A program made the translations under genes and the position numbers. Shown here one piece after another: positions 1,350 to 18,666 of a DNA stretch of 64,000 bases (positions are counted from its first letter, which is position 1; every line of letters starts with the position of its first letter). Source of the stretch: a virus; the IMG/VR virus record IMGVR_UViG_3300025645_000042, positions 1 through 64,000 of that record. One strand, written 5' to 3'. The notes beneath the pieces were generated by a model. The model had not been told where the DNA came from. It ran no database searches and was given only the letters and a program-made list of their open reading frames with translations.

Positions 1350-1431
1350 TAAAAAATTTGAGTATAAGGTAGGTTGGAGTCTACTCTTCCTGATTGTTAG
1401 TCACCGCCCTTAGAGTCTTTCCTCATTGTCT
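1350..1431 (-). ncRNA. small RNA family member A
   Basis: On the minus strand a host-type promoter (TTTGG at 1463-1467, 19-base spacer, TATCTTTG at 1436-1443) is followed not by an open frame but by about 40 variable bases. Then comes the conserved block at 1369-1390, which reads GGAAGAGTAGACTCC then AACCTAC, and a T6 run at 1351-1356. The GTAG/CTAC ends of the block can pair as a small hairpin. Five more units of the same layout occur (B-F). It is antisense to no gene. Function is unknown. Confidence 0.55.
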
Positions 1432-1509
1432 ATTACAAAGATAAGTAATATAAATGATACTACCAAATAATTTGTGGTTTTTTTTAATTTATTTTTTATA
1501 TAGTTTTAT

Positions 1510-1540
1510 TTTGTGGTTATATAATATTATTGTATATTTG
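1510..1540 (+). promoter_or_regulatory. Bacteroidota-type promoter
   Basis: TTTG, 19 bases, TATATTTG (1533-1540), followed by the shared leader ATCAATGTTTAA and then the ATG at 1570. A clear example of the promoter plus leader cassette used by early genes in this window. Confidence 0.75.
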
Positions 1541-1569
1541 CATCAATGTTTAATTAAAACCACAAAATC

Positions 1570-1878
1570 ATGAGTATTACAGCAAACGAAGCAACCTTAA
1601 AGACATTAAAAGCGGAGCGCAAATCTTTAGATGGACAAATCAAATTATTGGAGCGAGTTATTTTTAAACAAAAGCTGCCTGAAGATGGTATTATATTAGA
1701 TGAGGGTCTTGGAGAGCGTTATCCAATGTCATCGGGTTATTATGGTATTATAGTTTCAGAGAGGCCCGCAATGCATATATATCAAGATAAGATATATGGT
1801 ATTGAGATATGGCAGTATAAGGAAGACTCTGTAGACATCAAAATAGGTTATGTTAGTACTAAGCATGGAAATTTTTAA
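1570..1878 (+). CDS. hypothetical protein with N-terminal coiled coil
   Basis: A 102-residue protein whose first 35 residues form a likely coiled coil (alternating Leu and charged residues), followed by a short mixed alpha/beta part. No family recognised. The start is set by the promoter at 1510-1540 and the A-rich leader. The small size, private promoter and neighbours point to a non-essential early gene. Confidence 0.7.
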   Translation: MSITANEATLKTLKAERKSLDGQIKLLERVIFKQKLPEDGIILDEGLGERYPMSSGYYGIIVSERPAMHIYQDKIYGIEIWQYKEDSVDIKIGYVSTKHGNF

Positions 1879-1956
1879 AAAAAAGTATAAAATAATTTGC
1901 ACAGTATATAATAAAGTCTTATATTTGCATCAGTAATAATTAAAACAACAGATATT

Positions 1957-2859
1957 ATGAAAAATTTATTTCCATTTGAGTACATTGAAAATCCATTAAA
2001 GAATCAAGATGGTACTGATTCTAATTTCAGACAGGTGTTTGGGTTAGGTGGTATTAACGTAGCTTGTCCAAAAGGGTCTTATCATATTGTTAAGGCGACA
2101 GATTTAAGTTCATTAGGACATTCCTTTATTGATAAGGGATATGAGGTAACGACATTCAACCATAGATGTGGTGAAGTTATTGGGCTTAACATTTCTTTTG
2201 GGGAGAAGGGTACAAAGGTAGGTGATTGTAGTTATAAGTTAATTATCACAGTTCCAAATAATGGAGGTGGTAAGGGTTACTTATCAATTAAGCAGACACG
2301 TTTAATTTGCACCAATGGTATGGTATCTAATAAGACTGTACACAAAGACAATTACATTAAGATTCCACATACATGGAATTACAATGATAGTATTAAATTG
2401 ATGGAACAGTCGATTGGTAGTTTCACATCTTTAATGACACAATTAGAGAATAGAGATGAGATATTCAATGAAGTTGCACTTAAGGATACTGAAGTTATGT
2501 ATCACCTTAATAAGTGGTTTTTTGAGCAAGAATTACCTGTATCTCAAAAGAAGGTTAAGACTGAAGATGGATGGGTTCCAATGACTTTAGATATGTTTAG
2601 AGAGATGTTAGTTACATCACCAAAAGAAACGCCTTCATACGCTCGTTACTGTGAGTTAAAAGAGGCTTATGAGAGAGAGATTTCTTATAACAAAGAGTTA
2701 GGTTTAGATTTAACCATGTACACAGTATATGCATCGGTAACGAATTACTTATCACGTAGAGTTGAGAGTTCAGGTTCAAAAGCATCGAATGAGGTGAAGT
2801 TTGAGAGAGCGAGTAAAAAGTTAGTTTACTTTGATTCGATTGAATCGAGTTTAGTATAA
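1957..2859 (+). CDS. DUF932-like protein
   Basis: A 300-residue protein resembling the phage/plasmid DUF932 family (TIGR03299-like). The hallmark is the central LICTNGMV segment around residues 118-125, with the conserved Cys-Thr-Asn-Gly. The family is common in phages and plasmids, but no biochemical role is established. It has its own promoter (TATATTTG at 1920-1927) and leader, and two consecutive terminators follow it, so it is a monocistronic, probably well-expressed early gene. Length fits the family. Confidence 0.75.
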   Translation: MKNLFPFEYIENPLKNQDGTDSNFRQVFGLGGINVACPKGSYHIVKATDLSSLGHSFIDKGYEVTTFNHRCGEVIGLNISFGEKGTKVGDCSYKLIITVPNNGGGKGYLSIKQTRLICTNGMVSNKTVHKDNYIKIPHTWNYNDSIKLMEQSIGSFTSLMTQLENRDEIFNEVALKDTEVMYHLNKWFFEQELPVSQKKVKTEDGWVPMTLDMFREMLVTSPKETPSYARYCELKEAYEREISYNKELGLDLTMYTVYASVTNYLSRRVESSGSKASNEVKFERASKKLVYFDSIESSLV

Positions 2860-2865
2860 AAGCAT

Positions 2866-2900
2866 TGGGGTAAGATTGGATGCCTTACCCCATTTTTTTT
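2866..2900 (+). terminator. intrinsic terminator after the DUF932-like gene
   Basis: A perfect 9-bp stem (TGGGGTAAG/CTTACCCCA) is followed by eight T. It begins a few bases after the stop codon. Confidence 0.85.
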
Positions 2901-2914
2901 AATTTTTCATTTTG

Positions 2915-2947
2915 AATCCCATCAGTTAATTCTGGTGGGATTTTTTT
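2915..2947 (+). terminator. second intrinsic terminator
   Basis: An 11-bp stem with one wobble pair (AATCCCATCAG/CTGGTGGGATT) is followed by seven T. This back-up terminator also separates the gene from minus-strand RNA unit B. Confidence 0.8.
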
Positions 2948-2963
2948 ATTGAAATATAGTAAG

Positions 2964-3021
2964 GAAAAATAAAGGTAGGTTGGAGTCTACTCTTCCGATT
3001 TGTTAGGTCAGGCCCTTTGTT
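2964..3021 (-). ncRNA. small RNA family member B
   Basis: Minus-strand promoter (TTTGG at 3053-3057, 19-base spacer, TATCTTTG at 3026-3033) followed by a short RNA with the conserved block at 2975-2996 and a T5 run. Its 5' part (ATAACAAAGGGCCTGACC) is almost identical to that of member F, while A, C, D and E differ. It points toward the DUF932-like gene and could be antisense to its terminator region. Confidence 0.55.
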
Positions 3022-3102
3022 ATAACAAAGATAAGGAATATATTTCATTCCACCAAATAATTACCAGGGTTTTTTTTCATGCTAGAGAAGCTAAAAGCTG
3101 CT

Positions 3103-3125
3103 TATCCCGCTAGTGGTGCGGGATA
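3103..3125 (+). other. strong hairpin without T run
   Basis: A perfect 8-bp GC-rich stem (TATCCCGC/GCGGGATA) with a 7-base loop lies between RNA unit B and the promoter of the gene at 3202. It is too GC-rich for this genome to be chance composition and lacks a T run, so it may be an RNA structure or protein site. Confidence 0.45.
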
Positions 3126-3201
3126 CAGGCGAAAATAAATTTGCGAGATAAATAATATTGTTGTATATTTGCATCAATGTTTAATTAAAACCTAATATAT
3201 T

Positions 3202-3576
3202 ATGAAATGTAAGTATTGTGAAAACGAAGCCACGGTTAAAGATTATAGAACGTGGGATGGACAAACAGGTAAAGAACTTGTTTGTAATGATTGCTTTGGA
3301 ATTACCAATGATAGTTTATTGGATAGGAAAGCTGAAATAAATGAAGTTAAAGAAGAGTTATTCAATTCAGGGTTGGATAATTTAGCTGAAGAGTTTTTAG
3401 AAAAAGGGTGGGGAGATATGTGGACGACCATTAATAGTGAAATGGATGAGTATAAACAATACATGATAAATGAGTTTGAATCTCAAACAGGTCATGAACC
3501 ACATAAAGATACTCTTGAGAAGTGGGATGAAATTATTTTATCTAAAATAAATAAGTTAATTAAAAAGTCGATATAA
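3202..3576 (+). CDS. hypothetical zinc-ribbon protein
   Basis: A 124-residue protein. Residues 3-31 hold two CxxC pairs (CKYC and CNDC), a treble-clef or ribbon-type zinc site. The rest is acidic and helical. It has a promoter at 3164-3171 (TATATTTG) and the ATCAATGTTTAA leader. The gene at 3580 begins 3 bases after its stop, so they are co-transcribed. Function unknown. Confidence 0.7.
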   Translation: MKCKYCENEATVKDYRTWDGQTGKELVCNDCFGITNDSLLDRKAEINEVKEELFNSGLDNLAEEFLEKGWGDMWTTINSEMDEYKQYMINEFESQTGHEPHKDTLEKWDEIILSKINKLIKKSI

Positions 3577-3579
3577 ATT

Positions 3580-3942
3580 ATGGCAAATTGTAAATCAGGA
3601 TTAGGGTTAGGATTAGTAAAGTTTGAATTAAGAAACAGGGAAGACATCGAGAGTAAGTTATATAGTATTATAGCTGTTGATTGTGATTTAAGTGAGAATG
3701 AGGATTACTTTAGGGAAGATACATTAGAGTTGGGGTATGAATCAGAGGCTCATAGATTGGTAGCCGAAGCTGTTAAGGATAAAGACCTAACGGAAGTAAA
3801 AGTCTTTGAGGAAGTCTTTGAGGAAGTTTTTAGTGCTATAAGTGGACAGGAATATTTTGATGATTGTGATTATAAGGTTGAAGATATGGGTTCTGGTATT
3901 GTTATGGTGGCTTATGCATATGGTGGTAATTATAGTTGGTAG
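3580..3942 (+). CDS. hypothetical acidic protein
   Basis: A 120-residue strongly acidic protein with a GLGLGLVKF start and a duplicated VFEEVFEEVF stretch in the middle. No family recognised. It lies in a three-gene unit with 3202 and 3946. No own promoter is visible. Confidence 0.65.
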   Translation: MANCKSGLGLGLVKFELRNREDIESKLYSIIAVDCDLSENEDYFREDTLELGYESEAHRLVAEAVKDKDLTEVKVFEEVFEEVFSAISGQEYFDDCDYKVEDMGSGIVMVAYAYGGNYSW

Positions 3943-3945
3943 GAT

Positions 3946-4086
3946 ATGAAAGCTAAAGATATAATAAAATTATTACAAGATAATCCAGAGGCAGATTTAA
4001 TTTTCTGGGATGGTGAAGATAACCATGATATTAATAATATTGAAGTGGATGGCATTAATGGTGTGGAGATAGTTATAAATATTTAA
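3946..4086 (+). CDS. small acidic protein (46 aa)
   Basis: A 46-residue frame that starts MKAKDIIKLL and ends with GVEIVINI, set 3 bases after the stop of the preceding gene. The MKAxDIIKLLQxxPEAxL pattern is a common small phage protein start. The spacing and the stop just before the next promoter support it as a real third gene of the unit. Confidence 0.6.
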   Translation: MKAKDIIKLLQDNPEADLIFWDGEDNHDINNIEVDGINGVEIVINI

Positions 4087-4161
4087 AAATGCTAACTATA
4101 GTATGTTGTGGGTACAGGGAATATGTTTTATCTTTGTACCCATAACATTAAAACATATATT

Positions 4162-4365
4162 ATGGAAATTTTAAGTAGACAAGAAGTTATTGACCAATTA
4201 GTAAATGATGAGACTGATACAATATCCCAGATGATATTTCAGAATGATTATACCTACATTGATGCTATAATGCGAAGTGGTGTTGGTGGTATTGAGGATT
4301 TATGTAATGAAGATTTGGTACAGAGATATTATGAAAGATTTGATGAAACAATTAAAATAGGATAA
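4162..4365 (+). CDS. hypothetical small protein
   Basis: 67 residues. An in-frame GTG lies upstream at 4108, but the promoter -7 box TATCTTTG at 4129-4136 falls inside that extension, so the ATG at 4162 is the start. Helical and acidic; family unknown. Co-transcribed with the gene at 4369. Confidence 0.65.
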   Translation: MEILSRQEVIDQLVNDETDTISQMIFQNDYTYIDAIMRSGVGGIEDLCNEDLVQRYYERFDETIKIG

Positions 4366-4368
4366 GAT

Positions 4369-4650
4369 ATGAAATTATATGTAATAGAGTACATTGGTGA
4401 TGTGGATTCATCAATAGAGGGAATAACCAATAATCCAGAGTTATGGCTTAGACAGCATAATGCTTATAGGGTTGCTGATGGTGAGATGCCAGAGTTGGAA
4501 GATGACTTTAATTTTTTGGAGTTTGATTATCAGGAGCGCACCCAGAGCAATACTGATGATTATTCATTATATATGTGCAATGATTGTCATGTGTTGGTTC
4601 CAGTGGTCCATACCAGAGATGGTGATGATTATTGTGATATGTGTATTTGA
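4369..4650 (+). CDS. hypothetical protein with C-terminal CxxC pairs
   Basis: A 93-residue protein with CNDC near residue 70 and CDMC at the end, a likely zinc ribbon. The N-terminal 60 residues are acidic and have no recognised domain. It follows 4162 at a 3-base gap. Confidence 0.65.
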   Translation: MKLYVIEYIGDVDSSIEGITNNPELWLRQHNAYRVADGEMPELEDDFNFLEFDYQERTQSNTDDYSLYMCNDCHVLVPVVHTRDGDDYCDMCI

Positions 4651-4666
4651 ATTAAATGTTAAATTA

Positions 4667-4698
4667 TTTGGTAGTTATATAATAAAGCCTTATATTTG
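4667..4698 (+). promoter_or_regulatory. canonical early promoter cassette
   Basis: TTTGG (4667-4671), 19 bases, TATATTTG (4691-4698). Cassettes with this order and almost the same spacer (TAGTTATATAATAAAG) recur tens of times on both strands. Confidence 0.8.
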
Positions 4699-4718
4699 TA
4701 TCAGATAATCAAAACAAC

Positions 4719-5150
4719 ATGAGAACAGTATATCAAAAGACAGCCGATAACAAAACCATTCAACGATTAGCGAAGCACGTTAGAACAGATGGTGGAAACT
4801 TCAAGGGAGTATGTGTATCGGCTTGTCTATCTTATTTCGGCATACAGCCAGACCAATATAAGTATACATGGTCCAAGCGAGTTGGGAATAATCACCATGC
4901 AATTTTAAGAAGATTTGGGTGGGCAGTTAGAAGTCGTAAGTCAACTTTATTGAAGGGTACGAAGACTGTAGGAAGTGTACGTAGAGCGATAGCGGCATAT
5001 GAAGATTACACGCCAGACATGATGTATATGGTTCATGTATCGGCTCATGTATTATTGCTTAACAGCAAAGGAGAAACGGTGGTTGACACATCACCTAGAA
5101 AGGTAGACCGTAGAAGAGTATTGAATGTTGTGGCAATATTTAAGTCATAA
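4719..5150 (+). CDS. possible papain-like/C39-like cysteine peptidase
   Basis: A 143-residue protein with an ordered set of possible catalytic residues: Cys in GVCVSACLSYFG (residues 30-41), His in the hydrophobic strand HVSAHVLLLN, and Asp in VVDT just after. This Cys-His-Asp order with a helix after Cys and a strand after His is that of small papain-like or C39-like peptidases. No signal peptide. It has a private promoter. The fold call is inference from motif order, and the protein could be an inactive relative. Confidence 0.45.
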   Translation: MRTVYQKTADNKTIQRLAKHVRTDGGNFKGVCVSACLSYFGIQPDQYKYTWSKRVGNNHHAILRRFGWAVRSRKSTLLKGTKTVGSVRRAIAAYEDYTPDMMYMVHVSAHVLLLNSKGETVVDTSPRKVDRRRVLNVVAIFKS

Positions 5151-5191
5151 TATTTGGTAGTTATATAATAATTTATTATATTTGTAACATT

Positions 5192-5545
5192 ATGGGACGA
5201 CATACAGGTGAGCGTAATAAAGGTAGAAGATATCATGATGGTTTTCATCCATCAAATAGTAGTAATAAAAAATTCTCTGAAAGGACATATAATACAAAAA
5301 ATTATATTAAAAAAGATAAAAGTAATAAAATCATATATCAAGTTTCATCAGATGGTAAAATAGTTAGGAAATGGAAAAACATATACGAAATTTCTGAAGT
5401 ATTAAAATCTTATCCTGATAAACTAAAGCAATATATTGATAAAGAAAAATTAATTGGAGGTTGTTTATTAGTAATGATGATTAATTATAAAACTACAATT
5501 GATTATGTTAAATTAATAAAATATATTAAATCAAAAACAAGATAA
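5192..5545 (+). CDS. NUMOD1-like DNA-binding protein without nuclease domain
   Basis: A 117-residue protein with a basic N-terminal half. A segment at about residues 48-95 reads YQVSSDGKIVRKWKNIYEIS and ends with GGCLLV, as in NUMOD1 repeats of homing endonucleases. No GIY-YIG or HNH motif is present, so it may be a remnant or a DNA-binding adaptor. The -7 box TATATTTG at 5177-5184 lies 7 bases before the ATG, giving a very short leader. Confidence 0.55.
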   Translation: MGRHTGERNKGRRYHDGFHPSNSSNKKFSERTYNTKNYIKKDKSNKIIYQVSSDGKIVRKWKNIYEISEVLKSYPDKLKQYIDKEKLIGGCLLVMMINYKTTIDYVKLIKYIKSKTR

Positions 5546-5547
5546 CT

Positions 5548-5784
5548 ATGGATTTTACACCACAGGCACAGATAGAGCAAAAGGTAATTGATATTCATTT
5601 TCCTACGCTAAAGAAACATTACAATTCAATGATGGGAAACTTTCAATTTTCAAAGAGAGAGTTGGAGATTAACATTGTAGCCATTACAAGATGGATGGAT
5701 ATGTTTAATGAGTATAGTATTATATGTCAAAAGCATGAAGAGTATAATGGTAAAGAATTTTTCTTAACAGATTTCTTTCAATAA
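5548..5784 (+). CDS. hypothetical protein
   Basis: A 78-residue, mostly helical protein starting 2 bases after the stop of 5192 and so co-transcribed with it. Family not recognised. Confidence 0.6.
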   Translation: MDFTPQAQIEQKVIDIHFPTLKKHYNSMMGNFQFSKRELEINIVAITRWMDMFNEYSIICQKHEEYNGKEFFLTDFFQ

Positions 5785-5843
5785 TTAGGATATTAAATAA
5801 TAATCTCTTATATTTGTATCATCAATGTTTAAAACCAAATAAT

Positions 5844-6419
5844 ATGTCAGCAAAAATTTACAGTGCACCAAAGAGTATTAAGAAACCAGATTACGATTGG
5901 AACAAAGGTCGTGATAATTGGAGAGAAGAAGAGCAACGTTATATCAATGAGATTAAGGCTCATAATAAGAGCATGGGATATAACGGTAAGAACATGGGTG
6001 AAATAATAAAATTTCAGGTTGCCGATGGTTATGCCGAGTATATGGTATTGCAGATGCGACCATTATCTTTAATCCATTTGGATATTATGGATGGTTACGA
6101 ATTCCATTATGCTCACCTAATGACAGCTAAGGAAGTCAATGACCAACTTAAGCGTCAGAGAGCTATGAATGAAATTTTCAGAAAATCTAATACAGCCACA
6201 CCTGATGAAGTTGTTGGAGTATTAGGTAAGGTAGGAGTTGAAACTACCAATATGTCAAAGCAAGAAATTGGTTCATTTGATACCACAACAATTGGTAATA
6301 GTCATTTTCATGTAAAATGGGATGGTAAGACATATATGATACCACCATTTTCAGGTAAGGTTTATGGGGAAAATTCACATAACGTATTTAAATTTTTAGT
6401 TAACAATTATAAGATATAA
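5844..6419 (+). CDS. hypothetical protein
   Basis: A 191-residue protein. An upstream in-frame codon at 5814 is excluded because it overlaps the -7 box (TATATTTG, 5809-5816); the ATG at 5844 follows the shared leader. The N-terminus is basic with YDWNKGRDNWREEEQRY. A later VEFYAHLMTA-like stretch is of unknown meaning. Followed at 4 bases by 6424. Confidence 0.65.
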   Translation: MSAKIYSAPKSIKKPDYDWNKGRDNWREEEQRYINEIKAHNKSMGYNGKNMGEIIKFQVADGYAEYMVLQMRPLSLIHLDIMDGYEFHYAHLMTAKEVNDQLKRQRAMNEIFRKSNTATPDEVVGVLGKVGVETTNMSKQEIGSFDTTTIGNSHFHVKWDGKTYMIPPFSGKVYGENSHNVFKFLVNNYKI

Positions 6420-6423
6420 AACT

Positions 6424-6741
6424 ATGATTTTAGGTAAAGTAACACACGCATATTACAATTGGGAAGTAACCGTAAATGACGGTACGATATTATTCAAGTG
6501 TAATTTAAGACCACCAGAAGGTAGTGGCATCCTGAAAATGGCAAGGGAGTATGATATACCTAAGACAGCCAGAGAGATTACATTTGAAGGTAGTTATATC
6601 AGGATTGATGATGGTAAACAGCTTATTGAATTTAAACTGGAAGGTGAGAGCTGTATTGTTGGTGATGTCTGGGAAGACGGTGAATGTATTGATTCAATTG
6701 CCATGTATGATTTCTGGGAAGATTATGTTTCTCAAGATTAA
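6424..6741 (+). CDS. hypothetical protein
   Basis: A 105-residue acidic, beta-rich protein in a two-gene unit with 5844. It has no recognisable motif. Confidence 0.6.
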   Translation: MILGKVTHAYYNWEVTVNDGTILFKCNLRPPEGSGILKMAREYDIPKTAREITFEGSYIRIDDGKQLIEFKLEGESCIVGDVWEDGECIDSIAMYDFWEDYVSQD

Positions 6742-6809
6742 ATGTTAAAATATTTGGTAGTTATATAATAAAGTGTTATATTTGTAATGTAATCAAAACA
6801 ACAGAAATT

Positions 6810-7073
6810 ATGGCCAGAAAAAAAGTTTATATTGTAAAGTCAGGAAGTCTTCATAAGACTGAGAGAAGATATTGGTTAACACCAAGTTACTTCACCAGTA
6901 AGAAGGGTGCATTAGCAAGAGCTAAAAACATCTTAGAAGTCAACAGAGCTACCAACATTGTAGAGCATAAAACTCATGGTGAGTTTGAGTTAAGATGGGT
7001 TGATTATGTAGGTGAGGAAGGCAAGTATGATGGTAGGATTATTGTTGAATGGGCTTACTTAGAAACATATTAA
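6810..7073 (+). CDS. hypothetical protein
   Basis: An 87-residue protein with own promoter (TATATTTG 6777-6784) and the AATCAAAACAACA leader. The N-terminal MARKKVYIVKS and strand-helix pattern suggest a small alpha/beta fold. Function unknown. Confidence 0.65.
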   Translation: MARKKVYIVKSGSLHKTERRYWLTPSYFTSKKGALARAKNILEVNRATNIVEHKTHGEFELRWVDYVGEEGKYDGRIIVEWAYLETY

Positions 7074-7108
7074 CGTTAAAATATTTTGGATATTAAAATA
7101 AATTGTTG

Positions 7109-7340
7109 TATATTTGTATTCAACGATTAGCAGTTAGAAGTAGGAATGATTACTGGAAAACTAACGGAGCGGTATTCATCACTTGAAATTTGGTAAACTG
7201 ATGATAAGCGTGGACAGGTAACTGAAAGCGGTATAACATAGATAACAGATAATTTTGACATGACCAAGCCGAGTACTTAACACAATAACTCTACAACTAT
7301 AATGTTTAACCTTAAAACCTAGAAATCATGTAACGTTATT
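7109..7340 (+). ncRNA. candidate non-coding transcript or decayed gene
   Basis: A good promoter (TATATTTG 7109-7116) is followed by about 220 bases with no frame longer than 16 codons. Near the end a leader-like stretch (ATGTTTAA ... AAAACC) leads to an ATG directly followed by TAA (7328-7333). A terminator follows at 7374. Either an RNA gene or a gene deleted down to its leader. Confidence 0.4.
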
Positions 7341-7373
7341 AAAAGTTATATATAATAGAAAATAAAATAAAAT

Positions 7374-7419
7374 AACTCTATCATTAATTTGGTAGAGTTC
7401 TTTTTTTGTTGTATCTTTA
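7374..7419 (+). promoter_or_regulatory. terminator/promoter hybrid
   Basis: AACTCTATC/GGTAGAGTT form a 9-bp hairpin with TTTGG spanning loop and 3' arm. Seven T follow (7401-7407), then TATCTTTA (7412-7419). The spacing TTTGG-19-TATCTTTA is that of the promoters, so the same bases can end the upstream RNA and start the gene at 7447. Confidence 0.65.
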
Positions 7420-7446
7420 CAGTATCAATGTTTAAACCACAAAATA

Positions 7447-7692
7447 ATGGCAAAGTATAAAAGAGTATTCCAAATGGGATTTGATATTGCAGAAAGAGAA
7501 GATGTTTCCAATGATGAACTCGAAGACTTATTCCTTTATCTCGAAGACTGTATCAACAACTACAAGTTTAAAGAAACAAAAGGAGAACCACCATACTTTA
7601 AGTCGGTAGGGTGTGAGAATACAGAAGATATGAGCCATGCTTATGGAGAGAAAGAACTAAAACAAATTAATGAAGATGAATATAGTAGATAA
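7447..7692 (+). CDS. hypothetical protein
   Basis: An 81-residue acidic protein driven by the hybrid element at 7374-7419 and the ATCAATGTTTAA leader. Its first half (RVFQMGFDIAERED) is amphipathic. No family recognised. Confidence 0.65.
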   Translation: MAKYKRVFQMGFDIAEREDVSNDELEDLFLYLEDCINNYKFKETKGEPPYFKSVGCENTEDMSHAYGEKELKQINEDEYSR

Positions 7693-8849: not shown

Positions 8850-9078
8850 GAAAATACCTGAAATAGTTTTAAGAGCTGAAAAAGAAGCCATCGCTATTAT
8901 GAGATGGGCTAGGAGTTGCGAAACGCCAGAACAATTTGATAATATTGAAAGGTTTTCCAAAAAACATAAGTGGATGACTAATATAGCTTATGATAATGAT
9001 GTTCAATATTATGTTGGTGCAACACATGGATTTATTATTGCATTAAGAAAAACTAAATTTAATTTGGATATTAAATAA
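8842..9078 (+). CDS. hypothetical protein
   Basis: A 78-residue helical protein translated from an ATG overlapping the end of the preceding small gene. No recognised family. Confidence 0.65.
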   Translation: MSKKIPEIVLRAEKEAIAIMRWARSCETPEQFDNIERFSKKHKWMTNIAYDNDVQYYVGATHGFIIALRKTKFNLDIK

Positions 9079-9123
9079 TAATCTCTTATATTTGTAATAT
9101 CAATGTTTAAAAACCAAAATATT

Positions 9124-9540
9124 ATGAAAGTAAATTTCGATAAAGCAGAAGAATATTTAGTTCAATCCGATGAGGAAACTGATTTTCCTGTTCATAAACA
9201 AGTGTTGGCTATATATAATCAATCTAAGATTAATGATACTATGATGATTGACCACGTTGATGGTGTTCAAACTGTTGAACAATTTGAATATACATTTACC
9301 TGTCGAGATTTTCTAGAGCATATTGGCAATAAGTTAGCCAACTTGAAATTAGCTATTGATGAGGAAAGTGTTAACATTTATGTTGATAATGGAGATGACC
9401 AAGAACCAACACATATCGTGTATTGGCATATAGATGAGTTTGAAGAAGATGGTAGTGTTTGCATCTCGGCATTAAATGCCTTACAGTTGTTCTATACAAA
9501 CCCACAGGAATTATTAGACCGTTTAAAAATACAATTATGA
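9124..9540 (+). CDS. hypothetical protein
   Basis: 138 residues. The ATG at 9103 is in frame but belongs to the shared leader ATCAATGTTTAA, so the start is taken at 9124. Promoter TATATTTG at 9087-9094. Acidic; no known domain. It overlaps 9537 by ATGA, indicating translational coupling. Confidence 0.65.
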   Translation: MKVNFDKAEEYLVQSDEETDFPVHKQVLAIYNQSKINDTMMIDHVDGVQTVEQFEYTFTCRDFLEHIGNKLANLKLAIDEESVNIYVDNGDDQEPTHIVYWHIDEFEEDGSVCISALNALQLFYTNPQELLDRLKIQL

Positions 9541-10812: not shown

Positions 10813-11268
10813 ATGGGGACAGTCTACAAGACATACGCTGGATGTTTTTTAAGAGTACCAGTACAAAACATCCCAGTAACAAAGAGATATTATAAAACCC
10901 TATCAGGTAAGCGGGCTAATACCCGTTTTAATCCTGAAACTGGTGAAGAATATGAGCTATGTACTGAAATAGTTAATGAAAAAACGAATCCACATTCATA
11001 TATTGATGATGTTGATGGGTTCTATGAAGATGCATTTGATACCGCTGGTGAATATAATGAGGTAGAACGCCTCTTTATACCTAATTCATGGGAAGATTCA
11101 ATTATTAAATCTGATACCGAATGGGAATATGACCAATCTTTACTAAATGTGAACTCTGCAACTGAGATTTTAAGGTTTAAATCCAAATATTCCAAGTATT
11201 TAGACTATTATTCCAAGGAATTCGGTAAATATGAGATAGATTTTGGTATTATTAGATATGGAAGCTAA
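10813..11268 (+). CDS. hypothetical protein
   Basis: A 151-residue protein starting directly at the end of the previous gene. It is Tyr- and Asp/Glu-rich with a basic N-terminus. Function unknown. It is the last gene of the leftmost plus-strand block. Confidence 0.65.
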   Translation: MGTVYKTYAGCFLRVPVQNIPVTKRYYKTLSGKRANTRFNPETGEEYELCTEIVNEKTNPHSYIDDVDGFYEDAFDTAGEYNEVERLFIPNSWEDSIIKSDTEWEYDQSLLNVNSATEILRFKSKYSKYLDYYSKEFGKYEIDFGIIRYGS

Positions 11269-11980: not shown

Positions 11981-11982
11981 AT

Positions 11983-12262: not shown

Positions 12263-12306
12263 TATTACAAATATACAACTTATATTTTAATTATCCAAAT
12301 TTATTT

Positions 12307-12459: not shown

Positions 12460-12473
12460 AATAATATTTTAGT

Positions 12474-12488
12474 GTACACATTTGTGTA
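12474..12488. repeat. inverted repeat GTACACATTTGTGTA
   Basis: Fourth copy of the operator-like inverted repeat, placed in the 33-base gap between two minus-strand genes. Confidence 0.55.
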
Positions 12489-12492
12489 TTGG

Positions 12493-12780
12493 TTATTTTT
12501 CAGACTTGAATATGGTACCAGATGGTGCATATCTTGTTGGGAAAAAAGTGTGAGGATTTTCTAAGCACCAGTTAGATACTCCAATATTCTTCAACTTCTC
12601 TTTTACTTCCTCAACGTCTTGTGGTTTCACCCGCATAGCTTTAGTCATCCGAGTGGTTATAATATAATCTTCTTGACGATGACTCTCAATGAATTGTTTT
12701 AACTTCTCACCAAATCTTGGTGATATTCCTTCAATCCATACGATATAAAATTTTGGTTTATTCATTGTCTTATTCATCAT
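12493..12780 (-). CDS. hypothetical protein
   Basis: A 95-residue protein with an alternating strand-helix pattern (KFYIVWIEG, then EKLKQFIESHRQEDYIITTRMTKAMR). Its start overlaps the end of 12770 by 11 bases. Family unknown. Confidence 0.65.
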   Translation of the reverse strand: MMNKTMNKPKFYIVWIEGISPRFGEKLKQFIESHRQEDYIITTRMTKAMRVKPQDVEEVKEKLKNIGVSNWCLENPHTFFPTRYAPSGTIFKSEK

Positions 12781-13060
12781 ATAAATCTATTTCACCGTCT
12801 GCAACTTTCTTCCAAAAGTTTAATGAATTTTTATAACTACCTTTAGTTCCAGCTTTAAGCCAATCTCTTGACGGTAATGGATTACCATAATAGTCAAAGG
12901 TTTGTTTTTTTGGTAACATACATTCACCGCTTCTTAAAGCATCCATTGCTCTACGTCCAGCACTACCTTCAAATTTCCAGATTGAAGCATCATTGATACT
13001 ATCTTGTAATTCTTTTCGACCATGTAAAGCCTGTAATTGTTTAACATCGTGATATTTCAT
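12770..13060 (-). CDS. hypothetical protein
   Basis: 96 residues, promoter TATCTTTG at 13083-13090 in a terminator/promoter hybrid. The sequence KFEGSAGRRAMDALRSGECM, then DYYGNPLPSRDWL, suggests a compact helical protein. No known function. Confidence 0.65.
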   Translation of the reverse strand: MKYHDVKQLQALHGRKELQDSINDASIWKFEGSAGRRAMDALRSGECMLPKKQTFDYYGNPLPSRDWLKAGTKGSYKNSLNFWKKVADGEIDLYDE

Positions 13061-13082
13061 TGTCTTGTTGTTTTGATTAATA

Positions 13083-13128
13083 CAAAGATAAGAAAAATAA
13101 ATAAGACTACCAAATATATGATAGTCTT
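13083..13128 (-). promoter_or_regulatory. terminator/promoter hybrid
   Basis: Read on the minus strand: AAGACTATC, an 8-base loop ending in TTT, GGTAGTCTT, a T-rich stretch, then TATCTTTG (13083-13090). TTTGG overlaps the hairpin's loop and 3' arm and is 19 bases from the -7 box. It ends the gene at 13137 and starts the one at 13060. Confidence 0.65.
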
Positions 13129-13136
13129 ATTTATGA

Positions 13137-13355
13137 TTATTTTAAGTTATACTTCTTGGCAAAATAATTTACCACTTCAGGTACATATTTCTTATAATAA
13201 GGTTGATTATCCATGCACCATACTTTTAATTCCTTTTTTGAAGTTAAAGGGTCTTTCCACGACTTACCTGTTTGAATTATATCTAATTGTATAGATAAAT
13301 CGTCAATGAAGTTTTGAACAGTCCAACCTTCCCAAATGTGTTTTTGTAAATTCAT
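13137..13355 (-). CDS. conserved phage hypothetical protein
   Basis: A 72-residue protein (MNLQKHIWEGWTVQNFIDDL, then KEELKVWCMDNQPYYKK-like end), of a type common in phage early regions. Promoter TATCTTTG at 13378-13385. Function unknown. Confidence 0.65.
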   Translation of the reverse strand: MNLQKHIWEGWTVQNFIDDLSIQLDIIQTGKSWKDPLTSKKELKVWCMDNQPYYKKYVPEVVNYFAKKYNLK

Positions 13356-13409
13356 AATGTTATTGTTTTGATTAATACAAAGATAAGAAAAATAAATGAA
13401 ACTACCAAA

Positions 13410-13808
13410 TTATTTACAAAACATATGAATAATTCTTTGCTTAATAATCCTACCATATTCGGTATGCATCATACCATAACGATATAAGAAACTCTCAATC
13501 TCAAAGTAGTCTCTAGTGTCTTCAATTTCACCCTCTACAATCCATCTAAGAGCTGTTTGTTCATCTCCAGCACCTAACTGAATAGTCTTCTGTAAAAGTA
13601 ACTTAAAAGCCATCTCTTGCTCCATCTCCCAAAGACGTTCTTCCTCTATGTTACGCTTAATAACAACTTGAAGTTTATCAAATTCTTCATGAATTTCCTT
13701 AATGGTAAGGTCACTTCTATAAGTTCTACATCTGAAACCATATGCATCTTTATGCATATCACTTAACATTGAATAAGCTTCTGAAAGTTCTGTTTGTGTA
13801 GTTGTCAT
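13410..13808 (-). CDS. hypothetical helical protein
   Basis: 132 residues. An in-frame extension to 13859 covers the promoter (TATATTTG 13833-13840) and is rejected. It contains a TALRWIVEGEIED segment similar to QWIVDGEMEL in the gene at 20798, hinting that the two are distant paralogues. Confidence 0.65.
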   Translation of the reverse strand: MTTTQTELSEAYSMLSDMHKDAYGFRCRTYRSDLTIKEIHEEFDKLQVVIKRNIEEERLWEMEQEMAFKLLLQKTIQLGAGDEQTALRWIVEGEIEDTRDYFEIESFLYRYGMMHTEYGRIIKQRIIHMFCK

Positions 13809-13901
13809 AATGTTGTTGTTTTGATTATAATACAAATATAAGACTTTATTATATACCATCCTAATATTTTAACACTTATTTTAAAATTTTAACATTTGCT
13901 A

Positions 13902-13960
13902 TAAAAAAAAATAAGCGTAGGTTGGAGTCTACTCTTCCCACCGTAGTGCGCCCGTCAACC
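13902..13960 (-). ncRNA. small RNA family member C
   Basis: Minus strand, promoted by the hybrid at 13965-14009. The RNA begins near TATTGGTTGACGGGCGCACT, then carries the conserved block (13917-13938) and a T9 run (13903-13911). GGTTG near its 5' end can pair with CAACC in the conserved block. It is nearly identical to member E over about 100 bases. Confidence 0.6.
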
Positions 13961-13964
13961 AATA

Positions 13965-14009
13965 CAAAGATAAGAAAAAAAAATGAACCCACCAAATAAA
14001 TGATGGGTT
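13965..14009 (-). promoter_or_regulatory. terminator/promoter hybrid upstream of RNA C
   Basis: Minus strand: AACCCATC / GGTGGGTT hairpin with TTTGG in the loop/3' arm, then a long T run, then TATCTTTG (13965-13972), spacer 19. It lies directly after the gene ending at 14024. Confidence 0.65.
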
Positions 14010-14023
14010 ATTTTTAATTAATT

Positions 14024-14407
14024 TTATCCGAATTGAACTTCTCCGTAGATAACAGTTTGTAGAATGATATCAGCAGTACACGCATCATCTTGTTCTTGAA
14101 TCATCTCCATTAGAGTATCTAATTCAACTTGTGGTATACGTTCTAAAACCATATCTAAGGTAACATCAGTAGTTTCTTCACCTTCGTTATCCACGAATTG
14201 AATAACACCACCATCTTTTAATACTTGAATTAACACGTCCTCAAATGCTGGGACATCTAACTTGGCTCTAGCATCATTATATGCATCTCTATCACAATCA
14301 ATGGTTATACCATAACCACCAATGTAACCTAAGCCATTACACAAAGCATTAAAGAAAATTTCAATACACTTCTCATTTGATAATTTTAATTCGATTTCTT
14401 TTGACAT
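14024..14407 (-). CDS. hypothetical acidic protein
   Basis: A 127-residue acidic protein of a type frequent in phages: N-terminal strand and helix (IELKLSNEKCIEIFFNALCN), a GYGITIDCDRDAYNDA segment and an acidic second half. Promoter TATATTTG at 14433-14440. Confidence 0.65.
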   Translation of the reverse strand: MSKEIELKLSNEKCIEIFFNALCNGLGYIGGYGITIDCDRDAYNDARAKLDVPAFEDVLIQVLKDGGVIQFVDNEGEETTDVTLDMVLERIPQVELDTLMEMIQEQDDACTADIILQTVIYGEVQFG

Positions 14408-14483
14408 AATTTCTGTTGTTTTGATTACAGTACAAATATAAGACTTTATTATTTAACTACCAAATAATTTAATATTTAATTTA

Positions 14484-14542
14484 TAAAAAAAAATAAGCGT
14501 AGGGTGGAGTCTACTTCTCACCTTTGCTCGGTTGCTTTGTAT
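14484..14542 (-). ncRNA. small RNA family member D (variant)
   Basis: The most divergent copy: the block reads AGAAGTAGACTCC then ACCCTAC (14499-14522), followed by T9. GGTG upstream can pair with the changed CACC, while in C and E GGTTG can pair with CAACC. This looks like covariation and argues for a conserved RNA structure. Confidence 0.55.
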
Positions 14543-14546
14543 ACTA

Positions 14547-14592
14547 CAAATATAAGACAAAAAAATAAGACTACCAAATTAATGGTAGTCTT
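14547..14592 (-). promoter_or_regulatory. terminator/promoter hybrid upstream of RNA D
   Basis: Minus strand: AAGACTACC/GGTAGTCTT hairpin with TTTGG in it, then T7, then TATATTTG (14547-14554), spacer 19. The stem differs in sequence from C, E and F but pairs fully. Confidence 0.65.
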
Positions 14593-14599
14593 TTTTAAA

Positions 14600-15319
14600 T
14601 TAATGTTTCATTATATAGATATCTTTTTTAATACCTCTGCTAGTACCATTACAAAGCCCACAAGCGATGCATGAAAGGTTTTTAGAACTTTCCTTACTTG
14701 CTGGACAATTAACTGCATTTTGTGGCTTAAAACCCTTTATTTCACTTGTAGCAACAAAAAACGAACGGTAACCTAAATCTTTAGCTTGTTGACGTTCTGT
14801 TTCAGTATGTGTTGACGACATAAAAAACTTATTATATTTTTGGTATTGTGGTTTATTCCATTGATGAGTATATCCTGTAGTTTTTTGACTTAAACCACTT
14901 AAGACTTCAACAACTTTTAAAGGTAATAGAATTGGTTCACCATAAGCACCAAAACGAACTAAATCTACTTTGTTAGTTGCTTTAACTTTATTAACAAAGT
15001 TAAAAAAGTCACTTTGTTTAAATTCATTAATAGTATTTAATTTTCTATTAAGACCCCTTAACATAGATTTTAAACCCATTAATTGCATACCTTTGTGAGT
15101 ATAACACCCACCACTTTTACCATTGTTTTGGTTATATGATAAAGGACAATCTAAACAACTTGCTTTATCATTTACTAAACTAGCATCCATAACTTGTTCA
15201 ATTGAATAATGGTATGTTTGAATAATATAACCAATTCCAATCTTACTGTTTTGTGAAACTTTAGCATTTAATACGTTAACCGTATTACCTAATCTATAAA
15301 TGTATTTAATATCTTTCAT
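14600..15319 (-). CDS. conserved phage/plasmid protein with two Cys clusters
   Basis: 239 residues. CLDCPLSY ... GGCYTHKG in the first third and CPAS ... CIACGLC near the C-terminus are likely metal sites. In between are RFGAYGEP and GYTHQW. I recall proteins of this pattern from phages and plasmids without known activity; the clusters could hold zinc or an iron-sulfur centre. The start at 15319 follows promoter TATATTTG at 15344-15351. The 3' end abuts hybrid D. Confidence 0.6.
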   Translation of the reverse strand: MKDIKYIYRLGNTVNVLNAKVSQNSKIGIGYIIQTYHYSIEQVMDASLVNDKASCLDCPLSYNQNNGKSGGCYTHKGMQLMGLKSMLRGLNRKLNTINEFKQSDFFNFVNKVKATNKVDLVRFGAYGEPILLPLKVVEVLSGLSQKTTGYTHQWNKPQYQKYNKFFMSSTHTETERQQAKDLGYRSFFVATSEIKGFKPQNAVNCPASKESSKNLSCIACGLCNGTSRGIKKDIYIMKH

Positions 15320-15401
15320 GTAGTTGTTGTTTTGATTACAGTACAAATATAAGGCTTTATTATATAACTACCAAAAATTTTAACACTTTTTTTTTAAGGA
15401 C

Positions 15402-15827
15402 TTACCCAGCACATACTGGGCCAAGTCCACGCTCTATACTTTGAGCATCAGTTAACGTCTTACCACAACATAAGCACGAACCTAAGTGCATTATTTCAGC
15501 TTGACGGTCAATCCACTCAAAATGTCTATTTTCTACCTTAAACAACACGAAACTAATTCCTATTGCACTTGGTGAAGTAATTTCACCACCACGCTTATAT
15601 ATCTTACCTTTGAAGTAAGAACCTAAATGAGTGAATTGCATATATCCTGTTTCAACATATACTTGAGTGTACCAACGTCCTTTAAACTCACTACGAGCAA
15701 TCTTATAGGTGAAGTCCTTACCAGTCAATTTAGACTTGATAGTAAAAGTAGCACCCTTATTATTCTTTTCACGCTTGATAACGTTATAAAGGGCTTCGCT
15801 TGAAATGATGTTTGCTTGAGTAGTCAT
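15402..15827 (-). CDS. DUF6011-type zinc-finger protein
   Basis: A 141-residue protein ending in CLCCGKTLTDAQSIERGLGP then VCAG, the DUF6011-like treble-clef signature (CxxCGxxLT ... GxGPxC). The N-terminal 100 residues are beta-rich and basic. Such proteins are frequent in phages, with no defined role. Promoter TATATTTG at 15852-15859. Confidence 0.7.
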   Translation of the reverse strand: MTTQANIISSEALYNVIKREKNNKGATFTIKSKLTGKDFTYKIARSEFKGRWYTQVYVETGYMQFTHLGSYFKGKIYKRGGEITSPSAIGISFVLFKVENRHFEWIDRQAEIMHLGSCLCCGKTLTDAQSIERGLGPVCAG

Positions 15828-15901
15828 GTTGTTTTGATTATTTGTTCACTACAAATATAAGACAATATTATATACCCACCAAATAATTTAACATTTATTT
15901 T

Positions 15902-15961
15902 CAAAAAAAAAATAAGCGTAGGTTGGAGTCTACTCTTCCCACCGTAGTGCGCCCGTCAACC
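15902..15961 (-). ncRNA. small RNA family member E
   Basis: Near-identical copy of member C: same 5' part, same conserved block (15918-15939), T10 run and same hybrid promoter. The identity extends through the promoter and stops at the neighbouring gene end, marking the unit that was copied. Confidence 0.6.
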
Positions 15962-15965
15962 AATA

Positions 15966-16010
15966 CAAAGATAAGAAAAAAAAATGAACCCACCAAATAA
16001 ATGATGGGTT
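15966..16010 (-). promoter_or_regulatory. terminator/promoter hybrid upstream of RNA E
   Basis: Same sequence as the hybrid at 13965-14009: AACCCATC/GGTGGGTT hairpin, T run, TATCTTTG (15966-15973). Confidence 0.65.
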
Positions 16011-16018
16011 ATTTTAAA

Positions 16019-16168
16019 TTATATTTTATTATATAAAAGTTTGTTAGTATGGATTCCATACATTGCTTTGATACTATTACTAACAATACCATTAACTTTT
16101 GATAATTGGATTGCTAATAGTTCAGCTCTTAAATTGATACGTGCATTAAATTTGTCTTGATAAGTCAT
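16019..16168 (-). CDS. small basic helical protein (49 aa)
   Basis: A 49-residue frame (MTYQDKFNARINLRAELLAI, basic tail) with promoter TATCTTTG at 16194-16201 and the usual A-rich leader. Too small for family assignment. Confidence 0.6.
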   Translation of the reverse strand: MTYQDKFNARINLRAELLAIQLSKVNGIVSNSIKAMYGIHTNKLLYNKI

Positions 16169-16225
16169 TTGTTGTTTTGTTTTGATTACATTACAAAGAT
16201 AAGAAATATATTTGATTTATCCTAA

Positions 16226-16540
16226 TTAAAATGTATAAACTTCATCAGATAATGAAAATGTGATTTCGCCCTCAGTTTCAACTTTAGTTTTGATTGCACG
16301 TTTAATTGCAGATTGTAAACTACTTAATGATTGATATCTTTCATAATTTAACCCCTTATTGGTTCTAACATAAAGATTTGCACCAAAGGAACTCAATTTA
16401 CAATCTACACCATGTCTATCTTTTAAGATAAGTGAAAACGTATAAGGTTTATCAGACAAGTGTAAATTTATTTGTTTTTTACCCTTGTATAAGTCTTCAA
16501 GAGTAATATTTACATCTTTAAGGTTTTGTACTCTTTTCAT
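16226..16540 (-). CDS. hypothetical protein
   Basis: A 104-residue basic beta-rich protein; both ends carry similar motifs (HLSDKPYTFSL and SLSDEVYTF), suggesting a small internal repeat. Promoter TATATTTG at 16566-16573. Confidence 0.65.
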   Translation of the reverse strand: MKRVQNLKDVNITLEDLYKGKKQINLHLSDKPYTFSLILKDRHGVDCKLSSFGANLYVRTNKGLNYERYQSLSSLQSAIKRAIKTKVETEGEITFSLSDEVYTF

Positions 16541-16606
16541 TTGTCTTGTTGTTTTGATTACAGCACAAATATAAGACTTTATTATATATAAACCTAATTA
16601 TTTAAC

Positions 16607-16639
16607 ATAAAAAATGGCCTCTAAATTTAGAGGCCATTT
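16607..16639 (-). terminator. intrinsic terminator
   Basis: Perfect inverted repeat AAATGGCCTCTAAA/TTTAGAGGCCATTT followed on the minus strand by a run of T. It ends the gene at 16653. Confidence 0.85.
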
Positions 16640-16652
16640 ATAAAGAGTTATT

Positions 16653-17582
16653 TTATTTCACTCTTTTTATCAAAACAAATACCATGTGTGAACCATCATC
16701 AGAATAATCAATTACTTCCTCAAATTTATAGTTGTTACTCATAAAAGACAATAACTTCAATCTAATACCACCAATTGTAGTTGGTGTATCTTTAGAGCCT
16801 ATTTCAGCTAAAATCGATTTATGATACTCAATAGACGTTTGATTTTTAGTGTTTGCTTCACGAGTAGTGAAAGTTAAACCAATTAAACCACCACGTATCA
16901 CTAAATTATTAGTAAAAATATGTCTAATTTCAGCTTCGTAGCTTGGAAATGTACCACAATAATCAGCAAATATATGAGCAAAAAAATCATTCTTTTTTGA
17001 CATTAAAACTTCACTTGCTTTACCTAAATGTAACTGCATTGAAAGTTTATACTTTGCAATGGTTTGTAATGCTTGTTCAAAAATATCTTTTTTACATTCA
17101 GCACCGATGTAATGAAACTTATTTTCTAAATTAATATTCAATTCATTTTCAAAGGCACAAGTTTCACTTGGTAAGCTAAAAAACCTACCTTGTGTTTTTT
17201 TAGTTTTTCCAATAGCTTCGATAAACTTATATCGTATATTCATTTTATTAACACCATTGAAACGAGTTTTGGTTTCTTCTTTTAACTCATTCAAATCTAC
17301 TGAATAGATAGCAGTATAAATAGCTTCTGCATTAATAGGGTTGTTGGTTTCTTTATCTAAGAAACGACTTAAAGCATAAGATGTGATTCCTAACTTTTTA
17401 CTTAATGTTATGTGAGTATAAGTACTTGACTTAGCTAACTTTAATAAGTTGTTACGCTTGACCGTTATTTCACGTTTAAGTCCACCTAACTTTTGTGGCA
17501 CTTCAAAATTAAAATCTAACTCATTTGACTTTACATTAGGGTTTCTAATGATTTGAACTTTTACTTGATTTTCTGTTAACAT
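16653..17582 (-). CDS. HTH protein with possible methyltransferase-like C-terminal half
   Basis: 309 residues. Residues 45-80 (LLKLAKSSTYTHITLSKKLG, then TSYALSRFL) form a helix-turn-helix. The C-terminal half has FADYCGTF, then NLVIRGGLIGLTFTTREA and a final strand MVFVLIKRVK. This order (acidic DYxG loop, then GG-turn before a T-F-R strand) is like the late part of Rossmann methyltransferases, but no SAM-binding GxGxG is visible, so this is weak. It may be a DNA-binding regulator. Promoter TATATTTG at 17615-17622. Confidence 0.45.
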   Translation of the reverse strand: MLTENQVKVQIIRNPNVKSNELDFNFEVPQKLGGLKREITVKRNNLLKLAKSSTYTHITLSKKLGITSYALSRFLDKETNNPINAEAIYTAIYSVDLNELKEETKTRFNGVNKMNIRYKFIEAIGKTKKTQGRFFSLPSETCAFENELNINLENKFHYIGAECKKDIFEQALQTIAKYKLSMQLHLGKASEVLMSKKNDFFAHIFADYCGTFPSYEAEIRHIFTNNLVIRGGLIGLTFTTREANTKNQTSIEYHKSILAEIGSKDTPTTIGGIRLKLLSFMSNNYKFEEVIDYSDDGSHMVFVLIKRVK

Positions 17583-17614
17583 AATTAGTTTGTTTTGATT
17601 AAATATTGATATTA

Positions 17615-17658
17615 CAAATATAAGATAAAAAATAACCTAGCAAAATAATTACCAGGTT
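17615..17658 (-). promoter_or_regulatory. terminator/promoter hybrid (weaker)
   Basis: Minus strand: AACCT ... AGGTT hairpin, T6, TATATTTG (17615-17622). The -33 box is TTTTG, 18 bases away. It ends the ParB-like gene and starts the HTH gene. Confidence 0.5.
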
Positions 17659-17669
17659 ATTTTATAAAT

Positions 17670-18416
17670 TTACGCAACTTTTAATTTAGGTGCGTTAACT
17701 TTAGATGCACGAACTAACATCTTTAATTCATTTCTAAGGTCATTTTCATTTTCAGTAAACCCAACACTTTCAGCACGTCTAATAATTAATGGCTTAATTA
17801 TTTTATGGTTATAGTCTTTATCATTCATTATATCAATAATAGCACGTCTACAAAATGCTTTACTAGGTAAATAATCATTCAAGTCTACAATTTGCTTAAT
17901 AATTTGGTCTGACTTGGCTTCATCAGTAAAAGTCATAGTACCTTTACGAAATTCATTCATTGAACTTTTACCACTATAAGCCTTAACTAATGGTGTGATT
18001 TGAATTTTAGTTTCAGTTTGAACTTTTAATAATTTAACGTATTCTGAAATATTTAATTTTGACCATATATTAAGGAATTGATTTGTCCCCCACGCTTTTG
18101 CACAATTATTAACGTCTGCTAGGTAGTTTGCCAACTCTAAGGTAGTAGCTATCTCAACAACATCAAACTTGAAGGGAATGTTCAAAATTTTAGCAGCTAA
18201 AAATCTATGTTGACCATCTAAAATATAATAAGACATTACACCATCAATAGCATCAGTTTTAATAACTGTAACACAACTAACAAAACCCCAACGCTTAATC
18301 GATTCAACTAATCTATTAACATGGTTTTGGTCTGCCTCTCTATTGAAGTTAAAGAATTTAAATAAGTCATAATCTTGTGATAAAAATAACTTTGTTTCTT
18401 GGAATAAATTTTTCAT
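17670..18416 (-). CDS. ParB/Srx-fold nuclease-like domain protein
   Basis: A 248-residue protein. Residues 25-95 form a ParB-like N-terminal domain: NRLVESIKRWGFVSCVTVIK, then YYILDGQHRFLAAKIL with the DGxHR motif. This fold binds nucleotides (CTP in ParB) and occurs in phage DNA-binding and modification proteins. The C-terminal half is basic and helical, consistent with DNA binding. No partner ParA or parS site is seen, so plasmid-type partition is not supported. Promoter TATATTTG at 18454-18461. Confidence 0.7.
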   Translation of the reverse strand: MKNLFQETKLFLSQDYDLFKFFNFNREADQNHVNRLVESIKRWGFVSCVTVIKTDAIDGVMSYYILDGQHRFLAAKILNIPFKFDVVEIATTLELANYLADVNNCAKAWGTNQFLNIWSKLNISEYVKLLKVQTETKIQITPLVKAYSGKSSMNEFRKGTMTFTDEAKSDQIIKQIVDLNDYLPSKAFCRRAIIDIMNDKDYNHKIIKPLIIRRAESVGFTENENDLRNELKMLVRASKVNAPKLKVA

Positions 18417-18555
18417 TTGTTTTGGTTTTGATTATTAAATATTGATTACAGTACAAATATAAGACTTTATTATATACTAACCAAATAAAACCAGGTAAAT
18501 TTACAACATAATGAAACTTTTTAATATCCAAGAACTTTAACATTTATTTTATGAA

Positions 18556-18616
18556 AACTTAAATATAAGGTAGGTTGGAGTCTACTCTTCCGACTTGTTA
18601 GGTCAGGCCCTTTGTT
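18556..18616 (-). ncRNA. small RNA family member F
   Basis: Minus strand, from the hybrid promoter 18621-18666. Its 5' part matches member B (ATAACAAAGGGCCTGACC); the conserved block is at 18570-18591. The downstream T run is weaker than in C-E, so its 3' end is less certain. Confidence 0.55.
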
Positions 18617-18620
18617 ATAA

Positions 18621-18666
18621 CAAAGATAAGAAAAAAAAATAACCCTACCAAATAAATGATAGGGTT
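18621..18666 (-). promoter_or_regulatory. terminator/promoter hybrid upstream of RNA F
   Basis: Minus strand: AACCCTATC/GGTAGGGTT 9-bp hairpin with TTTGG, a long T run, TATCTTTG (18621-18628), spacer 19. The stem differs from C and E by compensating changes. Confidence 0.65.

Follow-up and report, generated by a model that had tools for sequence, protein, structure and literature searches.

The 64,000 nucleotides analysed here (the window), positions 1 to 64,000 of IMG/VR virus record IMGVR_UViG_3300025645_000042, contain six copies of what is almost certainly a real structured RNA family, whose members are predicted from sequence to be free-standing noncoding RNA genes, about 60 to 90 nt long, each with its own Bacteroidota-type promoter. 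The predicted layout is a promoter, a hairpin (P0), the letters GGG, a second hairpin (P2), a mini-hairpin GAG-UAGA-CUC (P3) and a CRNYNYRY tail, often followed by a U-rich stretch.

Six RNA copies and their promoters in the window

A search of both strands of the window for the block GGAAGAGTAGACTCC returned five exact copies and one with three mismatches (TGAGAAGTAGACTCC, 14506-14520), all of them on the minus strand, against an expectation by shuffling of 0.65±0.77, with six copies never reached; the rest of the 119-kb record around the window holds zero additional copies. Directly 5' of all six sites, on the same strand, lies the Bacteroidota-type promoter TTTGG-19-TATMTTTG, with a spacing of exactly 19 and with TATCTTTG or TATATTTG as its box. 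The six sites are not special in this respect, as the same pattern occurs 25 times within the window (0.06 expected) and most of its other copies precede small ORFs, so that the six sites share the common Bacteroidota-type promoter of the phage.

The features are as follows.

1350-1435, minus strand: RNA copy A, with P0 UAGA/UCUA, GGG, P2 UGA-CUAACAA-UCA, P3, tail and T run; covariance-model match 1362-1415, E 4.9e-11
1436-1467, minus strand: promoter of A, TTTGG-19-TATCTTTG; promoter pattern
2964-3025, minus strand: RNA copy B, P0/P2 type as in F; covariance-model match 2968-3021, E 3.6e-10
3026-3057, minus strand: promoter of B; promoter pattern
13903-13964, minus strand: RNA copy C, short-5' type, with closing stem UUGG/CCAA, P2 CAC-UACG-GUG, P3 GAG-UAGA-CUC and a U9 tail; covariance-model match 13910-13959, E 6.8e-9
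13965-13996, minus strand: promoter of C; promoter pattern
14485-14546, minus strand: RNA copy D, deviant, without GGG, with hairpin GAG-AAGUAGA-CUC lengthened by GGU/ACC; covariance-model match 14492-14528, E 0.0017; twin at L019:3618
14547-14578, minus strand: promoter of D, TATATTTG; promoter pattern
15903-15965, minus strand: RNA copy E, near-identical to C; covariance-model match 15911-15960, E 6.8e-9
15966-15997, minus strand: promoter of E; promoter pattern
18553-18620, minus strand: RNA copy F, P2 GAC-CUAACAA-GUC; covariance-model match 18563-18616, E 1.4e-11
18621-18652, minus strand: promoter of F; promoter pattern

These data bear out several claims of a preliminary description of this DNA, namely six minus-strand sites with a common block, each with a full promoter, none opening a reading frame (no ORF of at least 60 aa in the window overlaps a site), and a grouping of the 5' parts in which B and F are alike, C and E near identical, and A and D single. 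Two further claims stood in part: the T run described as usual is clear in copies C, D and E but weaker in A, B and F, and the common strand holds for the six window copies but is no property of the family, whose copies occur on both strands in other records.

Two other repeats were noticed. The near-perfect dyad TACACAAATGTGT(A) is present in six copies (582-595, 644-657, 704-717, 12475-12488, 25114-25127 and 25702-25715), giving 12 matches over both strands of the window where 1.25 are expected; it also stands directly 3' of the minus-strand RNA copy at 968 in contig L124 (CCTACACATTTGTGTAC), and L119 has a variant of it behind an RNA copy. It is perhaps a regulator site or a terminator. The putatively transcribed leader TACTGTAATCAAAACAAC occurs at 16 places (0.28 expected), at 13815-25075 on the minus strand and 6785-6802 on the plus strand, in most cases with the common promoter on one side and a small ORF on the other.

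Conserved structure of the RNA family

Relatives were gathered by exact-pattern scans, in which the block recurred in the same setting. After removal of chance matches in coding regions, 143 distinct members were kept, 111 of them at less than 75% identity, from about 80 contigs of IMG/VR, a 27-kb contig of a MAG and Larrie, a cultured phage of Tenacibaculum. Since the block served as anchor of the scans, its invariance is overstated and is partly an effect of ascertainment; P0 and P2 were absent from the scan patterns apart from GGG and length limits. The promoter consensus in the family is TTTG near -33 and TAnnTTTG near -7.

P2 and P0 are the helices with the strongest support. In an alignment of 87 distinct rows, which leans to structure, all five modelled pairs of P2 vary on both sides, the double-change cells number 122 (43.7±7.8 after shuffling) and the covariation of P2 is 0.546, compared with 0.223±0.021 in controls that were shuffled and at most 0.134 in those that were slid; the shuffled controls leave the relatedness among members in place. 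Unlike this alignment, a gap-free seed of 18 sequences does not lean to structure, and there the closing pair of P2 is C-G in 13 of 18 and U-A in the other 5 with zero exceptions, P1, P2 and P3 together reach 0.319 against 0.141±0.020, and double changes are found in all five P2 pairs. Furthermore, these five pairs take five of the six top ranks in an APC-corrected mutual-information scan, and on the RNA strand of the P2 columns G-T outnumbers A-C by 21 to 10, in an alignment that leans to pairs.

P0 was assessed from two anchors, the promoter box and GGG, with folding not used. The seventh base after the promoter box pairs with the third base before GGG in 53 of 66 cases (A-U 25, U-A 13, C-G 13, G-C 2), whereas 25.1±3.6 are expected by chance and slid comparisons give at most 33. 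Because a position counted from the promoter thus pairs with one counted from GGG, the 5' end of the RNA is tied to the promoter, and the pairing supports a hairpin in an RNA predicted to start a few bases past it.

Downstream of P2, the near-invariant GAGUAGACUCC contains P3. In most members GAG precedes UAGACUC, adjoining it or displaced by two bases, which lengthens the loop, and the GAG/CUC pairing is likely, although covariation between the two was never seen among the members. The tail R-N-Y-N-Y-R-Y after CUCC is kept at 94-100% at each fixed position and is often followed by UUAUAUUUU, while a clear T run within reach is missing in about half of the members. Tentatively, GGG may close the whole RNA with the YNY of the tail (Fisher p 0.01-0.02), with no clear covariation among members. 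Pairing of GGG with the invariant CUCC was rejected, as GUG variants exist while CUCC is unchanged. Minimum-free-energy folding was unremarkable (z from -2.2 to +1.8 for the six copies) and, not being significant, was dropped as proof of structure.

The pairings first proposed are only partly right: GGUUG/CAACC is confined to C and E, and that of D (GGU/ACC) is plausible because the twin of D in another phage (L019:3618), also without GGG, shows GAU/AUC at the same place; the helices with the best support, P2 and P0, are others. Members of the short-5' subgroup, two excepted, form the stem with UUGG/CCAA or GUGG/CCAC. Likewise, the earlier picture of a common 3' block with a variable 5' part is better recast as an invariant core with hairpins that vary in sequence and are conserved in structure. 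P2 or GGG is absent from a few members. In a P2-less variant, GGGAC or GGAC lies directly before CGAGTRGACTCC and the 5' part is of the GTAAC... kind (L104, L107, L110, L113 and the plus copy of L072). L093 has tandem P3-like blocks at 9075-9167 and 11003-11094 (GGAGTACACTCC.. followed by GGGAGAGTAGACTCC, or GGAGTATACTCC.. followed by GGAGCGTAGACTCC), which gives the impression of a block in the position of P2. In L017 (about 4123-4245), L072 (5816/5883) and L133 (2283/2347) two copies point toward each other at a distance of about 60-70 nt and overlap in their 3' tails.

As a MAFFT alignment of all members put the 5' strand of P2 in the wrong place, the covariance model (R1) was seeded with the 18 equal-length sequences, none of them from the window, and P2 was its sole structure. 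On the window, R1 returned all six copies and nothing beyond them up to E 1, with E values between 1.4e-11 and 6.8e-9 for F, A, B, C and E and of 0.0017 for D. The covariance search suggested in the preliminary description, run in this way with a model from other phages, recovers five copies strongly and D at the weaker value. Together with the compensatory changes in P2 and P0, it speaks against a block found only as part of DNA-level repeats, and it lends support to the proposed family of promoter-driven small RNAs.

Distribution and genomic setting

When records were searched whole, the copies per record ranged from 1 to 9 or more, the record with nine matches being only 53 kb long. IMG/VR contig 3300025887_000015 (loci L009, L014 and L015) repeats the RNA copies of the window with the same sequences. 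Among 396 genomes of the phylum of the MAG, only that MAG matches, with three copies on a single contig, which points to a family that belongs to phages. Larrie (ON950054) has at least three copies, unannotated, the three matched ones, at 16931-16988, 18780-18837 and 19413-19469 of its record, lying in gaps between annotations on the strand opposite to all surrounding genes; it was the only meaningful match in a blast search of the RNA against 50,697 phage records, a weak search given the short queries.

Overlap with ORFs of at least 60 aa is absent in 121 of 150 RNA members. Of 113 downstream genes, 68 lie on the strand opposite to the RNA, as do 78 of 112 upstream genes; the other 45 downstream genes share its strand, and a promoter-like box separates 34 of them from the RNA. 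Copies A and B of the window have no minus-strand gene nearby downstream. Gene families next to the RNA vary among phages, the commonest occurring in 24 of 80 contigs, where it marks one syntenic group, jumbo phages included. The terminase large subunit is near the RNA in 14 of the 80 contigs, DUF932 in 13 and GP88 in 11, and no common partner gene adjoining the RNA was found when the nearby genes of these contigs were compared. Since the neighbours differ, are mostly on the opposite strand and have promoter boxes of their own in between, the RNA looks like an independent gene and no leader. At the sequence level it thus has the marks of a stand-alone phage sRNA, namely its own promoter, a place outside ORFs and a conserved structure. 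In the window, a DUF932 protein (1957-2859) adjoins copy B and a weakly ParB-N-like protein (17670-18416) adjoins copy F; an ATP-dependent protease-like protein is encoded at 44926-47412.

Possible function and relation to known RNAs

The best explanation as a whole, at a probability of roughly 0.45, is that of an RNA that acts in trans by binding a conserved factor of the host. Several copies would be transcribed by the host polymerase, probably early, as many neighbouring small genes bear the same promoter, and the RNA would begin just past the promoter with P0, whose 3' strand abuts GGG, followed by P2, core and tail. Because P0 and P2 drift freely while GGG and GUAGACUCC are fixed in many unrelated phages, this core may be the binding surface for the host factor, a protein or a ribonucleoprotein, which the phage RNA would occupy or inhibit, with the copy number supplying the dose. 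Few RNA families are conserved across unrelated phages, and the conservation seen here suggests a common target in Bacteroidota cells. The RNA is most probably free-acting, early in infection; action in trans appears probable, and that it decoys or inhibits a host factor is put forward tentatively. More doubtful is the wider proposal that, in phages of a single bacterial phylum, with genomes of anything between roughly 30 kb and jumbo size, a phage-exclusive multi-copy RNA inhibits or decoys one conserved component of the host or its defence; if true, a factor of host takeover would be an RNA instead of a protein. As Larrie is cultured and carries copies, expression and deletion are accessible to experiment.

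The main rivals are regulation by base pairing and a role internal to the phage. Base-pairing sRNAs, whose loops or conserved AGUAGACUCCAACC would meet phage or host mRNAs with a different target for each copy, would fit the differences in loops and tails among copies, the pyrimidine-rich CUCC, which could meet purine-rich sites, and the recombination of P0 and P2 types among the copies of one phage (L119). However, loops that drift while stems are kept are the reverse of a seed, the complement of the core occurs in the window, on both strands, only at the six sites, and the best core complementarity to rRNA is within shuffles for 5 of 6 host-phylum sequences, so that we regard this explanation as rather unlikely, and the rRNA version of the host RNA targeting suggested earlier finds no support. 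One rRNA candidate, the pairing of GGAUUGGAGUCUGC in 16S with GUAGACUCCAACC (12 of 13 by eye; reached in 0 of 40 shuffles for one 16S), was rejected, as the same stretch is changed in another 16S of the phylum (20 of 40), and 23S gave no signal of core complementarity above shuffles. An RNA of the phage's own life cycle, serving packaging, replication or a complex with a phage protein, would agree with the near absence from the 396 genomes, the three copies on one contig included, and with the similar neighbourhood kept in 24 contigs; against it, the gene families near the RNA (only nearby genes were compared) vary, with at best 24 of 80 contigs sharing one, and copy number ranges from 1 to at least 9, and we consider it unlikely.

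The trans-acting reading is also to be set against explanations that assign the element a local role. A riboswitch-like leader or attenuator could serve the 45 of 113 copies with a same-strand gene downstream, but the opposite orientation of the other 68, the promoter-like boxes before 34 of the 45 genes and the position of A and B make it very improbable. Small size and invariant unpaired letters between variable helices might recall a self-cleaving or processing element with an invariant junction, that is, a small ribozyme; with zero Rfam ribozyme matches and a promoter immediately upstream of each copy, which leaves no long 5' part to cleave, there is little to recommend it. Hardly to be expected, too, is an element acting as DNA only (a repeat, a protein-binding dyad or a recombination site) spread with its promoter: copies in one phage are indeed near identical in part (C and E, and to a degree B and F), but two hairpins show compensatory changes, P0 begins at a constant distance from the promoter, and G-T exceeds A-C, as expected of RNA of this strand, albeit in an alignment leaning to pairs; all three argue for a transcript.

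No Rfam 15 covariance model matches the window at its gathering score; at E values up to 10, far sub-threshold chance matches appeared on C and L018 copies and none on an L119 copy. ARAGORN found 0 tRNA or tmRNA genes in the window. The same-strand downstream genes form no common class, as would be expected of a riboswitch or cis-leader. Rfam CRISPR repeat families gave none at cut-off, CRISPR-DR15 reaching 14.6 of 36 bits, sub-threshold and on the opposite strand only. Likenesses to tRNA(Trp) (AGAGUAG..CUCCAA) and to Cas12a repeats (GUAGA) were considered and dropped, as the letters beyond GUAGACUCC vary. Keyword searches of the open-access literature found no description of the family. One survey lists 3161 candidate structured RNAs from human-microbiome Bacteroidetes, some near phage domains and one palindromic, of 109 bp (PMC8040213); the 109-bp RNA differs from our family in being palindromic and near integrase genes, though our family may coincide with one of the 3161 candidates. 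Within the reach of these searches the RNA family appears to be undescribed, while its mode of action may prove to be of a known kind.

GOLLD, ROOL and the T4 RNAs C and D are phage-borne structured noncoding RNAs of unknown role, and the RNA of the window resembles them in being noncoding, phage-encoded and conserved in structure. GOLLD and ROOL, however, are several hundred nt long and usually single, whereas this RNA has 60-90 nt, many copies and its own promoter, and no sequence relation to RNAs of the GOLLD/ROOL type emerged from the Rfam search. To our knowledge, no other RNA combines 1 to 9 or more copies per phage, a host-type promoter of its own set at a constant distance from the first helix, two drifting hairpins, a fixed core and near absence from host genomes. 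Anti-CRISPR RNAs, or solitary repeat units, copy a CRISPR repeat; they too are short phage RNAs with their own promoter, but the hairpin sequences of our family vary freely. The antitoxin RNAs of type III systems (ToxI), likewise short and structured, come as tandem repeats with a toxin gene behind them, whereas the copies described here are solitary and have no common neighbour gene. CsrB and RsmZ are sRNAs that sequester a protein, CsrB with many GGA loops in one RNA. The family shares with them hairpins of free sequence, fixed (here putative) binding letters and a high dose, and differs from CsrB in that separate genes would supply the dose and that its fixed letters are GGG and GUAGACUCC.
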